From Thelephora terrestris (lineage: Eukaryota > Basidiomycota > Agaricomycetes > Thelephorales > Thelephoraceae): 64,000 bases of DNA. Each line of letters starts with the position of its first letter. The stretch's first letter is position 1. Where the stretch lies: positions 2,852,001 through 2,916,000 of the forward strand of contig WIUZ02000001.1 of assembly GCA_015956445.1 (NCBI GenBank). Direction: 5' to 3'. The translations under genes were made by a program, and so were the position numbers. Below are positions 39,769-45,717 of the stretch, one piece after another. Below the pieces are notes generated by a model, which worked only from the letters and a program-made list of their open reading frames with translations, was not told where the DNA came from and searched no databases.

Positions 39769-40464
39769 TCATTCTTGACCGTTGACGAGGCGGATGCATG
39801 GGACCCAGTAGCCAGCGCTGATGCGCTTGATGGATACCAACACGAGCTGTTCGACTACAATTCCACGTTGCCCGATGATCCACTCCGGCTGTGCTCCAAC
39901 GTTAACCTCTGCTGCATTCTTCGAAAGGCAAGGTCACGAATGAGGGATAGAGAGACCTAGTCGGGGCACTCACGACGAACGCGGCGACCTGCCTGCACAC
40001 GTTGCGCACCAGCTTCTCGACCGTAAATGTGGCTGTTGGCGTGTTCATCTATGTCGATGAAGGGTGATTCAGACAAAGACGTCTTACGCCGACTTCGGCG
40101 TTGACACTGACCTTTTTGTCTACTAGTATGTAGCCAGACAACTGTCAACACAAGTTAGTTGTGAGAATCTGACCACGGAGAAGTTACTGACGTCCAGCTT
40201 CAAGCGCATCGAATTAGCGGGAGGGTTTAGCTTCGCCAATTCATCACGCTCTACGAGGCCCTCGAGGTCGCCTCGTAGAACTCTGGAAAATGGGATCCCG
40301 CACGTCCTGGAGTTATCCAGGTTAAACCGGATGATTTTCTTCCCGTCACCGTTGTAGGTGCCGTTGACGGCAAACGGGACGAGTACTCCACAGTTTCCTC
40401 TTTCGCAGCAAATGTGGACATTGGGGTCGGTTACATAGCAGAGAGTTTCCTGATGATACGCCAT
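39769..40464 (-). CDS. WPGY-exon family member 1 (unknown function, 175 aa)
   Basis: Most diverged of the four members of a tandem array (39.8-45.7 kb). Exons 40464-40192, 40141-40112, 40048-39974 and 39918-39769 sum to 175 codons plus stop, with joints in phase 0. Exon 1 has a Cys-rich part (I-C-C-E-R-G-N-C) like member 4's, then I-I-R-F-N-L-D and G-L-V-E-R-D, ending M-R-L-K-L-D. Exon 2 is the 30-nt micro-exon, here L-S-G-Y-I-L-V-D-K-K. Exon 3 has F-T-V-E-K-L-V-R-N-V-C-R-Q-V-A-A-F-V. The last exon has V-V-E-Q-L-V-L-V-S-I-K-R-I-S-A-G-Y-W-V-P, matching the V-S-x-G-S-W-Q motif of the others. No signal peptide. A TATA-like element lies at about 40537-40528. Function unknown. Confidence 0.75.
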
Positions 40465-41197
40465 TTAGTTTGGACGAGGAGATGTGTGGATGTTGTGGGG
40501 AGGGTGGGGAGTGCTAATGCGCCAACCTCCTTTTATCCTCCGTGGAGAAACTCGTAGATATTTTCATTAGAACTGAGGTCAGGCAGAAACATGGGGTTGA
40601 TCAGCTGAGATTCGTGAATTGTGTGAAGCCTGGGGGGGACCCGCGCGTTTTCGATCACTGACTGATGCCGAGGCCCTAGGTCAATATGGAAGTTGGCGAT
40701 CCCCGGTTCGGGAATCGACTTTCCCCATGTCCCCTTTCTTTAAGGTGGCCATCCATCTTTTCCGCTCCGGATGTTCCGGCATTGCTTGCAGGCCGTTCTA
40801 CAATCAATAGGAACTCAGCTCGAGACTAAAACTGCGGACTCTTTTGTGTCCGCCACTGCTGCGACCATTTGTGGCGTCTTCAATAGCCCCGTGTCCGAAG
40901 CCATCGGATCGAGTCAAAGGTGAGCTAACTTCATCGAAGCGGCGATGATCTCGGACTCGGGGTATTCGCGTGGGGCACCTGGTGGAGAGGGGCTCAATTG
41001 TCACGCACCAAATCTAGAAAATGCCGGATGGAGGCAAGCTTAGACCCTGCGGCTTTGGGACGGTCTCCGGGGATCAAAGTGCAGCCACCGGGGCAAGTCC
41101 CATTGGCGCCAAATCCGCCACGCATTCGAAGTGTGGTCAGGCTGTAAGAATCCATTCAATACTGATGGGTAGGGAAAAACTAAAACAACTACAATGA
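40465..41197. other. Spacer between family members 1 and 2
   Basis: About 730 bp. A TATAAAA-like element (GGATAAAAGG on the minus strand, 40537-40528) stands about 65 bp before the member 1 start. The rest shows no gene; the 66-codon frame at 41004-40804 has no match to the family. Confidence 0.45.
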
Positions 41198-41972
41198 TTA
41201 CGCCAAGCATGGAGGGGGTCTGTACATTAGGTGTCGTTGCCACGAGCCCAGCGCGACACGCTCGAGTCCTACAATCACGATGTTCTCAAGCTGTATGCCA
41301 CCCTGAACTCCCGCTCGCCACCACCTAGTGCCTGGATCCACAGGCGTCGAACGACATTGCTGACATTGAATCATGAGATCACAGGGATCGTTGCGCTGGG
41401 TTGAACTTACTCGAAGGAATTTATCTAGACGCTTCGCAATCTCTGTTAAAAGTCTGCAACGTGTGATCTTATTGGGGGGTTCGTGCCAGTCTAAGGTTCG
41501 AATCTACACAGGTTGTAAGTCACGGTACCCGTAAAAATTTTCTGCGGGATTACCTGATCTGTCCAGGGTCCATAACCTGGCCACTCCACACCTGTTCGGC
41601 ACTCAAAATCTTCCCAAGAATTGAATTTAATGCCTACTTCAATGCGGAGGCTTATCGTTGAAGAGCATCCGTGAAACATTGTTTCCTCTCCTCGAAGGAG
41701 GCCATCAAGGCGCTCTCTGTGTGCGTCCATAGCGGAGATGAAGGAACCATTAGACATAGCGAAAAGGATCATTTCTGAATCGCCGCTTTCTTGAATCGAA
41801 GATCCTTGTGAAGGAATGTGGCGCCGTTGCGGGGCATACTGTTGAGGTGAGCACAATGAGGGTGCAGTGGAGGTGGGGGACTAACCACTTCGCGATTAGT
41901 TTGCCACCCTGGTAAGGCGATGTTGTGGAGCAGACGTCGGTAAACTGCTTCAAAAAAATCATCGGTCGCCAT
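41198..41972 (-). CDS. WPGY-exon family member 2 (unknown function, 190 aa)
   Basis: Exons 41972-41886 (29 codons), 41838-41638 (67), 41583-41554 (10), 41503-41411 (31) and 41359-41198 (53 plus stop), all phase 0, give exactly 190 aa. The N-terminus (DDFFEAVYRRL) parallels member 3 (EEFLDAVCDRL). Exon 2 has I-L-F-A-M-S-N-G-S-F-I-S-A and T-I-S-L-R-I-E; the micro-exon codes WPGYGPWTDQ; exon 4 has I-R-T-L-D-W and L-L-T-E-I-A-K-R-L-D-K-F-L; exon 5 has I-V-I-V-G-L-E-R-V-A-L-G-S-W-Q. No signal peptide or membrane segment. An intracellular protein of unknown role. Confidence 0.78.
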
Positions 41973-42095
41973 TTTGGATGGGTAGTGGTTCTGTGAAAGG
42001 CTCAGGAGCCACAATCGACCGTTTATGGTACCTCTGGGTCCATTGTACCGGGGTGCGCGAGAATGTTTGGGACAAAGGGTGAATCCTTCATTGAG

Positions 42096-42310
42096 TCACA
42101 TCAGAGAGTTCCGGACGGACAATAGTATCGGATCTCGAGAGATAACGCACCGCGCAGTCTGAATCAATGGAGCGGAACTTTGGCGTAAGATTGCCTCCGC
42201 GAGTGGCTCACAGCGCCCTCGATGGACAGTACCCATGAAAGAGGTCGAGCCATTTGCGGCGATCACAAACTCGTCCGGCAACGCACCAGGGACAGGGATA
42301 ATGTCCGAAA
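42096..42310 (-). pseudogene. Probable remnant of a further WPGY-exon family member
   Basis: The minus frame reads PDEFVIAANGSTSFM, then H-R-G-R-C-E-P-L, with I-S-R-D further on, the same order as the exon before the micro-exon in the intact members (I-x-F, N-G-S, G-R-x-x-x-L, R-D). It ends in a stop and is not followed by a WPGY micro-exon, the 31-codon exon or the last exon before member 2 starts. The 100-codon frame upstream (to 42525) may be its N-terminal part. A truncated copy left by unequal exchange is the simplest reading. Confidence 0.4.
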
Positions 42311-42663
42311 GGCTTCCGGCCGGTCGTACATACGATCATATCGACGAGAGGGACGAAAGGTAACCGAGGTGGTGGTCGCGTAGCAAAGAGATCAGATCGA
42401 TTGGAAACACGTGGCTGTGACGGAAGTAGAATGTACTGGACTCGGTCTCGGTCGCTTTTTGGGGACCCCCAAGTTATGACCTTGGTCCGCATGCCATTGT
42501 CTTCAAAGTCACATAACACGTTCACACTGCCGGAGACACCGCCTACAAGTACAAAGGCAGAAAAATCTCAATATGGGCTAAAATACGAACAATCTGATCG
42601 CACGATACTCGGTGGGGATAGTAGAAGCAAAAGAGGCAGATTACAGAGCTTGGAGAGAACGGG

Positions 42664-43578
42664 TTACGAGCTGCGGTGATAGTATAAACAAATCTGCCAG
42701 GAGCCACGCGACACCCTTTCCAGCGAAGCGATTTGAAGGTCACCCAGTTTAATGCCTCCCCGTCCGACTCTGAACTTCTCAAAGGCGGCGTCGATCTTAA
42801 CGGTCGCCTTGATCTGAGAACATGTTTTATATGTCGCGCAGGTTCTGGAAGAGGAGGGGTACAGACCTCGATGAATTTGTCCACCTGTTTCGCGATCTCT
42901 GTCGCTAACTTCGCGCGAGATATACTCTTCGGTTTCTCCTGGTAGTTCACGATTCGGATCTGGAAACAGTTTAATCAACCTGTTGATCTACGAGACACGA
43001 TGCTCACCTGCGCACCCCATCCGTCGTAGCCTGGCCACTATAGACACAGAGTTTGGGTGGAATATGACATGGGGATGAGAAAGAGGACGGTTACCTCGAT
43101 TCTTAAATTGAGGGTCTGACCCTGCTCAGTGAAAACTGCACTATCCCTGTCCACCAAAAGGTCGTATCGCCCGGCGAGCGCAGATTCTGCTGAAATGTGT
43201 CCGCCATCGGCCGTCACAAACTCGATAACCTGACGGGGTACGACATTTTGAGGGATGGAGGTGCCCTGACAGTAGAGGCGTTGTGGAATGACGGTGCCAG
43301 GGATAAGTTCCTGCTAAAAAAATCGTCAGAATTGAAGGGAGCAGAACATGGTGTCAAGCAGTTACAACTTGAGGCTCTGTTGCAACCTGGGGATATGTTG
43401 CAACCTGGTTGTATGTTGCGACCTGGGGATATGTTGCGACCTGGGGATATGTTGCGACCTGGGAATATGTTGCGACCTGAACGTCCTTTCCGCTGTCGAT
43501 AATTTCTTTCAAGCGGTCACAAACCGCGTCCAAGAATTCTTCCTTTTTCTGCGGAGCTTGGGTTCCTGTGTTGTCCAT
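42664..43578 (-). CDS. WPGY-exon family member 3 with hexapeptide repeats (232 aa)
   Basis: Exons of 70, 72, 10, 31 and 49 codons (first three at 43578-43369, 43310-43095, 43037-43008; stop at 42664) give 232 aa in a single frame. Exon 1 has EEFLDAVCDRLKEII and then six tandem hexapeptides of the type V-A-T-Y-P-Q. Exon 2 has L-I-P-G-T-V-I-P, V-I-E-F-V-T-A-D-G-G, A-G-R-Y-D-L-L-V-D-R-D and L-N-L-R-I-E. The micro-exon codes WPGYDGWGAQ; exon 4 has I-S-R-A-K-L-A-T-E-I-A-K-Q-V-D-K-F-I-E; exon 5 has I-K-L-G-D-L-Q-I-A-S-L-E-R-V-S-R-G-S-W-Q. A TATA-like ATATAAAG stands at 43663-43656, about 80 bp before the start. Confidence 0.78.
43369..43476 (-). repeat. 18-bp minisatellite (six units) coding VATYPQ repeats
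   Basis: Six contiguous 18-bp units, consensus GTCGCAACATATCCCCAG on the minus strand, that stay in frame within exon 1 of family member 3 and end at its donor site. Units differ by a few bases (VATYSQ, VATYPQ twice, VATYNQ, VATYPQ, VATEPQ). Confidence 0.9.
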
Positions 43579-44574
43579 GGAGAACGCTCAGGGTTGTCCT
43601 GTGATATCGACCTGGAGTGTGGTGACAGATCCCTCAACATGCCACCTCCCTTGGTCTTTATATCTGTGCATGCATCGCGGAGTCCATGTATCAATCAAAG
43701 GACCCAGAGGAAACCGCAGCTAGCTGAGTGTCTGGGCTCTCATGAAGTTTTGGGCAAACATTAGATGTCGGAGGGCCGAGGGGTTTCCTCAGGATGTGCT
43801 CCGGGTGATCTCAATTGTGTTTCTGAGCCAGAAGAAAGATGCTAGCTCTCATTGGGGATGATTATCGCTGGGCGTTCTAAGGGGTCCGTACAAGGTGAGG
43901 CACAAGTTCTGTGTTTCTGAAAAAGCGTCGCAGTAGGAGAACCAAAGACGGTATTGGCAGAGCATCAGCAAATGAAAGGATTTGGTCAGACGCGGTAGGG
44001 TCGGACACCTTAAAAGATCCACAAGACTCCCGATAGGACGGGCGCGATCGAGTAGGCTCATCAGCTTCTGTCAGACCCCCATTCAGTACCCCACGAGATT
44101 CTAAGCATCGAGGCTGCCATGCAACCCCGGATCTTTCAGGCCCCCGGGGAGATAACACAACGAGCTGACTCTATGGGCGTTCTGTGGTTGTGACTACAGC
44201 CAGTCACGTCACGCAGTGACGAGAGCGTTCAAACGCGTCAGATGAGTGTGCTCAGACGGAAACAGCCGCTCCATACGTAAAGGTAACGTGATGCCCCGAG
44301 ACGGACACCTCCACACGCGATGATCGATGATATCCTGAACGGTAGGCAGTATATTACAAGTCGCTTGTCTTCTGGACTATCGTACAACAAGCAGTCCGTA
44401 GACGAAAGTATAAACGAAAGGAAGTACCGAGGTTGAAAGAATTATCTGCTGCGATAAACGGCTGGATGGCATATATGGAATATAAAATGAATGGAATGAA
44501 CGATTATACCTACCAGTCAATGTCTAGATAATGATATGCTAGTAAAATCTACACGTGAGATGCGAAGGATGCGG
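43579..44574. other. Spacer between family members 3 and 4
   Basis: About 1 kb. It holds the promoter of member 3 (TATA-like at 43663-43656). The rest, including a 93-codon frame at 44158-43877, shows no family motif and no domain. Confidence 0.45.
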
Positions 44575-45717
44575 CTAAACGAAGCGGAGGTGCGGCTGCC
44601 AGGAAGCCAACGATACGTGCTCCAAGGCGACAAGGAAAATGCGGTCGAAGTCGACCCGGAAGGGAGGACTTGTGTCTCCCCGACGATTGCGGGCCATATC
44701 CTAGAAGGAGGGAAATGCCGTCTTTGAGTCTCAGAGTGATCCCGATCATTATGCACTCACCTCCAAGAAACGAAGCACTTTCTTAGAAACTTCAGTCGCA
44801 AGCTTGGATTTAGTGATAGGGGACGGCTTGCGTTTCCAATCTTTGGTGCGCATCTACACCATGGTCAGAGTAGGGTTCGGGAGATGAGCAGTGATACGAA
44901 CTTGCTGGGCCCACGACGAGCAATTTGGCCACTAAAGAAACGTTATTGATATCACTTTCCAGCCGTATGTGACTGGGTTTCGCACCTCTATTCTGATTGA
45001 TATCGAAGTCCGGCTTCCTACAAACATGGGATCGTCTCTGCCCGAGAGGCCGTTGTACTTGCAGCGGTAGGCGTCCCTCAAGCGCATGCCACATTGACCG
45101 TGGACTTGGAAGGTGATTAACTCGCCCCAGCGATCGTCCTCCAAGGGGTCACCCTTGGGACGACGGTACGGTCTCTGGATCAGGCAAGGGCCACCGCCGC
45201 ATCCGCAAATACAGGTTGGCCAGATCATCTACGAGGGGTTGTAGGTAAGCTCGCAATGGTGTTGGCAAGGCGATCTAGGTACTCACCTGGGGGATCGTGG
45301 CTGGCGAATCCGAAAGGGGTGGGGTGCTTACATCGTCGTATTCGCTTGCCGCAGAGCGGTAAGATGGGGGATAATCAGCCGCCGAAGGAGAGTGGGAGCC
45401 ATATAGGTGCTGGTAGGGGGTTAACAGGCGTACTGGTTCTCGGGAATGGTGGTTGGACTCACGGAATTGTGTTCAGCGACTTCACTGCCCAGAAAGGGCA
45501 GAGAGAATAGGTCTAGATCAAGTTCGTACGGGGGTCTATTGTCACCGTAGAAAGCTTCGCGCACAAGGAAATCCGCATCGAGTTTAAGGGTCTGAGCGGT
45601 CAGGGAAAGGATCTGGAATGGTTGAGGGGAACGAAGGCAAATGGTGGAATGGGAGAGAAGGGGACCTAAACTATCAGGCTGGGTATCAGTTGGCGACGAG
45701 TGGGGTGGTAAAGACAT
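44575..45717 (-). CDS. WPGY-exon family member 4 (unknown function, about 289 aa)
   Basis: Longest member. From an ATG at 45717 an 85-codon exon (polar, then acidic) and a 41-codon exon lead to the family core: exon 3 with a Cys-rich start (C-I-C-G-C-G-G-G-P-C) like member 1, then L-I-T-F-Q-V-H-G-Q-C-G, G-L-S-G-R-D-D and S-I-S-I-R-I-E; the 30-nt micro-exon at 44931-44902 coding WPNCSSWAQQ; a 31-codon exon (M-R-T-K-D-W, I-T-K-S-K-L-A-T-E-V); and a last exon with I-F-L-V-A-L-E-H-V-S-L-A-S-W-Q-P-H-L and the stop at 44575. A TATATAAA-type element at about 45768-45760 supports the long form. A shorter protein from an internal ATG in exon 3 cannot be excluded. Confidence 0.75.

Follow-up and report, generated by a model that had tools for sequence, protein, structure and literature searches.

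A dispersed gene family of Thelephora terrestris with a 30-nucleotide micro-exon, very probably a divergent sister branch of DUF6741

Results

The window analysed here is a stretch of 64,000 nucleotides (nt) from the basidiomycete Thelephora terrestris, and between its positions 39769 and 45717 lie four minus-strand genes, m1 to m4, that have a common plan: a core exon, a micro-exon of 30 nt, a helix exon and a last exon, joined in phase 0 (Table 1). From the core exon onward the introns of all four genes are GT..AG introns of 48–63 nt in phase 0, each of the four micro-exons (LSGYILVDKK, WPGYGPWTDQ, WPGYDGWGAQ and WPNCSSWAQQ) is preceded by AG and followed by GT, and the exon lengths add up to a multiple of three in every gene, m4 included. 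A preliminary description of this DNA had proposed the same plan and positions, and all four genes do join as it described. The helix exon has 31 codons in m2, m3 and m4 and 25 in m1. The motifs which that description gave for the end of the core exon and for the last exon need small corrections for m1, where the core exon ends in LKLD, off the strict pattern (M/I/L)R(L/I)(E/D), and the last exon reads ISAGYWV as against V(S/A)xxSWQ in the other three.

The 5′ part of m4 is unsettled: a gap of 234 nt separates its 5′ exon from the core exon, and a further exon possibly stands in between. Two introns of m2, one of 54 nt ahead of the micro-exon and one of 51 nt behind the helix exon, keep the frame and contain no stop, which means that the frame alone is no proof of them; both are backed by alignment with other members. 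Retention of these introns (minus strand, within 41198-41503 and 41491-41880 of the window) would insert residues without a frameshift. The VATYPQ repeat of m3 makes up an N-terminal tail whose length may vary.

Table 1. Positions of the four genes, their micro-exons and the m3 repeat in the window
Feature	Position	Strand	Details
Member 1 (m1)	40464..39769	-	exons 40464-40192, 40141-40112, 40048-39974 (25 codons), 39918-39769; 175 aa
m1 micro-exon LSGYILVDKK	40112..40141	-	30 nt; AG before, GT after
Member 2 (m2)	41198..41972	-	exons 41972-41886, 41838-41638, 41583-41554, 41503-41411 (31 codons), 41359-41198; 190 aa
m2 micro-exon WPGYGPWTDQ	41554..41583	-	30 nt; pattern match, AG before, GT after
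Member 3 (m3)	42664..43578	-	exons 43578-43366, 43310-43095, 43037-43008, 42959-42867 (31 codons), 42813-42664; 233 aa
m3 micro-exon WPGYDGWGAQ	43008..43037	-	30 nt; pattern match, AG before, GT after
m3 first-exon tandem repeat, VATYPQ units	43378..43479	-	18-nt unit, 5.7 copies, 90% matches
Member 4 (m4)	44575..45717	-	exons 45717-45463 (5′ part unsure), 45228-44986, 44931-44902, 44853-44761 (31 codons), 44700-44575; 248 aa as read
m4 micro-exon WPNCSSWAQQ	44902..44931	-	30 nt; AG before, GT after

Reading frames that have nothing to do with one another might have been matched up by eye, and m1 on its own is indeed hard to spot in this way and was missed by the block finder described below. 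The DNA pattern for WPGYxxWxxQ nevertheless occurs 12 times in the 40.6-Mb home genome, against none for the reversed pattern used as control; all 12 have AG before them, ten have GT after them, and the other two continue into the following exon without a break in frame. Scored with a profile built from 29 members outside the window, m1 to m4 reached 62.7, 150.3, 179.5 and 156.4 bits, whereas the best of 200 shuffles of each protein reached 6.2, 0.7, 2.0 and 3.1 bits, respectively (ten of the 29 profile members came from the block finder, whose training set held m2–m4 and lacked m1). With the window proteins at 62.7–179.5 bits and no shuffle above 6.2, coincidence can for practical purposes be dismissed.

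Six protein searches of the home genome merge to 62 places under a merging rule of 900 nt, which fused m1 and m2; the best typed E-value is below 1e-2 at 49 of these places and below 1e-3 at 32. The count includes a match in the window itself, at 1426-1764 (E 0.07, with stops inside), which found no backing from the spliced finder and is unsupported. It also includes both C56:146k and its 99.45% copy C32:32k (here and below, loci are named by contig and position). The stretches C32:30500-33500 and C56:145000-148000 agree at 99.45% over 2909 aligned bases, and C32, a contig of 39 kb, may be a second haplotype.

Gene models built by hand for 25 loci, the four window genes and 21 elsewhere, follow the same plan, and two of the 25 are damaged. 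In the damaged copy C1:4444k a stop falls early in the last exon, and C12:1075k has AT at the expected donor GT. Typed gaps between exons are 43–90 nt, the exception being a gap of 137 nt at C59:249k, which is explained by a micro-exon (WPGYQSKDYL) at first left out of the model. A typed exon edge lay off a splice site in five of the 25 models. The finder placed the last exon in four of these five; the fifth, C58:2008k, has a helix exon of 33 codons.

This spliced-block finder, trained on 16 members and requiring GT/GC..AG before the last exon, reads the end of the core exon, the micro-exon and the helix exon in 31 distinct members. Of these, 17 were absent from the training set and one, C56:86k (WLASRGGKDK), is doubtful. 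Scanned over the window, it gave m2, m3 and m4 alone at 14 bits or more, with m3 and m4 additional to the 31, and passed over m1 with its 25-codon helix exon. The micro-exon, set at 30 nt in the finder, is separate in 27 of the 31 members and fused to the next exon in four, and the introns are 43–96 nt. For the helix exon the finder scored 31 codons in all but one of the 31, by construction in the four fused members; in 27 its end is backed both by a donor and by the placement of a last exon, with 31 codons in 26 of these and 28 in one. Among 15 further finder rows that have the helix block only, with or without a last exon, C16:270k is doubtful because it lies on the opposite strand to the search match, and at C18:33k the finder gave no family blocks. 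The four fused members represent two lineages (C58:50k and C58:68k; C59:247k and C59:252k), in which the micro-exon segment runs into the 31-codon exon with no intron between. This means that the two exons are adjacent in the protein and that they meet at the point proposed in the preliminary description. The window genes are thus members of a large, old and dispersed family, present at about 60 places in the genome, and the unnamed family of that description, with its fixed exon plan, 30-nt micro-exon, phase-0 joints and strong divergence, is borne out.

The family has a counterpart in Pfam, DUF6741 (PF20526), for which the curated cut-off is 27 bits. Of 17 aligned members, 11 match DUF6741 with an E-value no higher than 1 (best 3.6e-07), and the cut-off is passed by C58:70k (30.8 bits) and C58:45k (31.8 bits); the match in C58:70k is colinear, covering profile positions 14-126 of 129. 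An exon-by-exon Pfam search of the genome gave two DUF6741 loci over the cut-off, C9:823925-824408 and C1:2135487-2135672, and among 14 control genomes there was a match in one, below the cut-off. Once spliced, the C9 protein reaches 163.8 bits against Pfam and, in the reverse direction, 31.3 bits (E 8.4e-12, one sequence) against a family profile built without the window members. Both loci have phase-0 introns at family positions, as read by eye (a slash marks the intron): MRIV/WTGY and FVQ/ in C9, and MHIS/WEGY in C1:2135k. The branch to which m1–m4 belong and DUF6741 have the same order of core elements, GVxLxEAL, RI/W-x-GY, helix, FVQ/ and GTWQP, and the phase-0 introns of the family coincide with those of the C9 gene at two places and with that of the C1:2135k gene at one. 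They differ in that the family branch has an extra intron that isolates the 30-nt micro-exon, whereas the C9 gene lacks the intron behind the micro-exon and has the segment joined directly to what follows, and in number, with two exon-by-exon loci over the cut-off as against some 60 places. Taken at the level of sequence, the family is very probably a divergent sister branch of DUF6741. The preliminary description had left it unnamed and without a function; it can now be attached to a named domain, while DUF6741 is itself of unknown function. The C9 and C1:2135k loci are DUF6741 genes outside the expanded branch and are candidates for the conserved parent gene.

The four genes had also been described as a tandem array. 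They are indeed four neighbours of one family, but they are not close local copies. On a tree of 34 rows, four label changes are required to place the window genes, and well-supported branches force three of these. The closest relatives of m1, m3 and m4 are found on other contigs: m1 groups with two C45 members (support 87/82), on a long branch and with its place unsure, m3 with three C12 genes, and m4 with C12:1075k, C12:1151k and two C59 genes, while m2 is basal to the m3 and C59/C1 groups. The label changes mean that separate lineages meet in the window cluster, which is not a recent tandem array, and on the tree we reject an array of close copies.

Selection was gauged by the ratio of nonsynonymous to synonymous rates (dN/dS), taken gene-wide, in nine pairs that were chosen by hand and are partly dependent, as three share m3 and two C12 genes and two include a damaged copy. 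The values are 0.09, 0.10, 0.12, 0.14, 0.27, 0.37, 0.39, 0.40 and 0.41. The sole window gene among them, m3, gives 0.14 with C12:2462k (67% identity) and 0.10 with C12:2458k (75% identity), its pairs having dS of 1.6–1.8. On these ratios the core is under purifying selection in the pairs examined, and a few sites may still vary.

DNA shared between loci was compared over 35 loci of 2.1–9.5 kb and 9 kb of the window, longer flanks lying outside view. Shared stretches of at least 150 bases mostly overlap genes and span 0.2–1.9 kb, and no mobile element is common to all of these loci. A few shared stretches are extragenic (C12:2463k, C12:2474k and C12:1107k; C59:246k, C59:270k and C1:4350k). In the numbering of the compared loci, extragenic shared stretches lie at L044 6350-6825, L045 2678-3398 and L069 3-337, and at L041 2622-2872, L042 277-498 and L051 2293-2798; they agree at 68–70% identity and are possibly a repeat.

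Among long open frames neighbouring the family genes, 20 of 39 were scanned against Pfam and eight scored over the cut-off: a Pex24p-type peroxin, an asparaginase, a PIG-V mannosyltransferase, dynamitin, a protein kinase and, in three pieces, a PDR/CDR ABC transporter. The genome has 12 loci for STE3 pheromone receptors (grouped by hand), in keeping with a basidiomycete that forms mushrooms, and two family members lie close to such loci, C23:1487k at about 5 kb and C45:313k at about 23 kb; with some 60 members this may be chance. Searches of other collections gave little: four single-member matches in NCBIfam, all at E 0.019 or worse and none convincing, and an AraC-type helix-turn-helix match in one member at 17.1 bits against a cut-off of 26.6, which we take as chance.

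In the literature, we found no paper that names DUF6741 or PF20526, with subscription papers and fungal genome annotations outside the search, and the family genes may well be recorded elsewhere under the label of hypothetical proteins. As far as titles and the beginnings of abstracts go, no work on lineage-specific unknown families in Agaricomycetes is tied to this one. A literature search for WPGY as a fungal motif led to a study of phosphoenolpyruvate (PEP) carboxykinase; WPGY in a basidiomycete paper denotes, in the part of the text available, a culture medium and is unrelated to the motif (PMC10341503).

Discussion

The explanation that we favour, with a probability of about 0.55, is that the window genes belong to a sister-branch family of DUF6741 which encodes a soluble binding domain. 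A propensity method applied to aligned columns gives strands at (V/I)xF and GIpL, a short helix, strands at SLRIE and QIRT, and then a long amphipathic helix at ITRxKLATEVAKxVxxFI followed by closing strands; m1–m4 have no membrane-like segment, the highest mean hydropathy over 19 residues being 1.13. The C-terminal core of about 150 residues would thus be a soluble intracellular domain of mixed strands and helices, with strands around RIE-WPGY, the helix at ITRxKLATEIAKxVxxF and closing strands at LVxLExVSxGSWQPxL, and with N-terminal tails that do not align lying ahead of it. We suggest, tentatively, that this domain binds a partner, either protein or nucleic acid, and that the paralogues serve different partners or conditions. 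The micro-exon holds a conserved segment of the core (W, GY), and on this explanation it would be a constitutive part of the fold that two old introns have set apart, rather than a switch.

Several observations weigh against this explanation. The window proteins are all below the DUF6741 cut-off, with no match for m1 and m2 and scores of 13.2 bits for m3 and 16.8 bits (E 0.0081) for m4, and for this reason we file them as a divergent sister branch and do not call them DUF6741 members; only two of 19 family members viewed singly pass the cut-off, neither of them in the window. A search of solved structures gave no relative (best E 1.1), and the secondary structure comes from a crude propensity method. 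We have low confidence in the binding of a partner and likewise in the soluble intracellular placement, which is predicted from hydropathy. The exon models are predictions from genomic sequence. Since the finder has the micro-exon length fixed at 30 nt, it confirms the splice sites and the sequence but not a free length; 15 more finder rows have the helix block only, with or without a last exon, and no micro-exon; and sequence was retrieved for all but 11 of the 62 places.

The short exon could in principle be a regulated cassette, the skipping of which would drop ten residues in frame and yield two forms of the protein. In 27 of 31 finder members it stands apart, flanked by phase-0 introns (its length being set there), and a precedent is known in the transcription factor gene Xlr2 of Trichoderma, where, according to the part of the report available, a regulated micro-exon is alternatively spliced (PMC11121469). 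The likeness, as far as that part goes, is that of a very short exon in a gene of a filamentous fungus; the difference is that Xlr2 is alternatively spliced (PMC11121469), while in the present family, read from genomic sequence, the segment is fused in some paralogues. In the C58:50k/68k and C59:247k/252k lineages and in the C9 DUF6741 gene the fused segment cannot be skipped by itself, and the conserved residues that it contains suggest that skipping should harm the fold. We therefore consider a cassette quite improbable.

The preliminary description had suggested proteins of self/non-self recognition, defence or symbiosis, selected to vary. The high copy number, the clustering on C58, C59 and C12 as well as in the window, the strong divergence of subfamilies with their non-aligning N-terminal tails and the presence of at least two damaged copies are all features that a recognition repertoire might have. 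HET and NACHT are examples of fungal domains of recognition or defence, but none of this kind was found among the Pfam-scanned members, and PADLOC, which covers anti-phage defence only, gave a single weak match (PDC-S58, E 0.00095) in one of 17 members. In addition, the neighbouring frames over the Pfam cut-off, eight of the 20 scanned, are ordinary genes, and gene-wide dN/dS of 0.09–0.41 in the nine pairs, with m3 the only window gene among them, speaks against selection to vary. A recognition repertoire of that kind is thus unlikely. The copy loss in the same description is matched by C1:4444k and C12:1075k, at least two damaged copies, and the part of the claim that made the family selected to vary is not supported. 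Damaged copies could also be expected if the family were decaying, composed mostly of pseudogenes or carried as cargo by mobile elements, and the scatter over some 60 places, the 15 finder rows with no micro-exon and the few extragenic stretches common to loci (three on C12; two on C59 and one on C1) are in keeping with this. Set against these are purifying selection in the pairs examined, the fact that most of the 31 members keep open frames and splice sites, and shared DNA that is mostly genic, 0.2–1.9 kb long and without an element common to all compared loci, which make decay very unlikely.

A more far-reaching idea, which we put forward as a speculation with rather little in its favour, is that about 60 diverged copies of a small intracellular domain, derived from one conserved DUF6741 gene, form a repertoire in which each copy would read its own partner, be it in recognition, mating compatibility or development. 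If true, a soluble, non-secreted repertoire without NOD-like receptor (NLR) or HET architecture would be of a new kind in fungi. Returning to the sister-branch family itself, very short exons are easily missed in annotation, and a family at some 60 places that has no name is a visible hole in the annotation of this genome. The link to DUF6741 and the exon plan should help gene finders to model the 30-nt exon, and they offer a starting point for studying the function of the family and of DUF6741.

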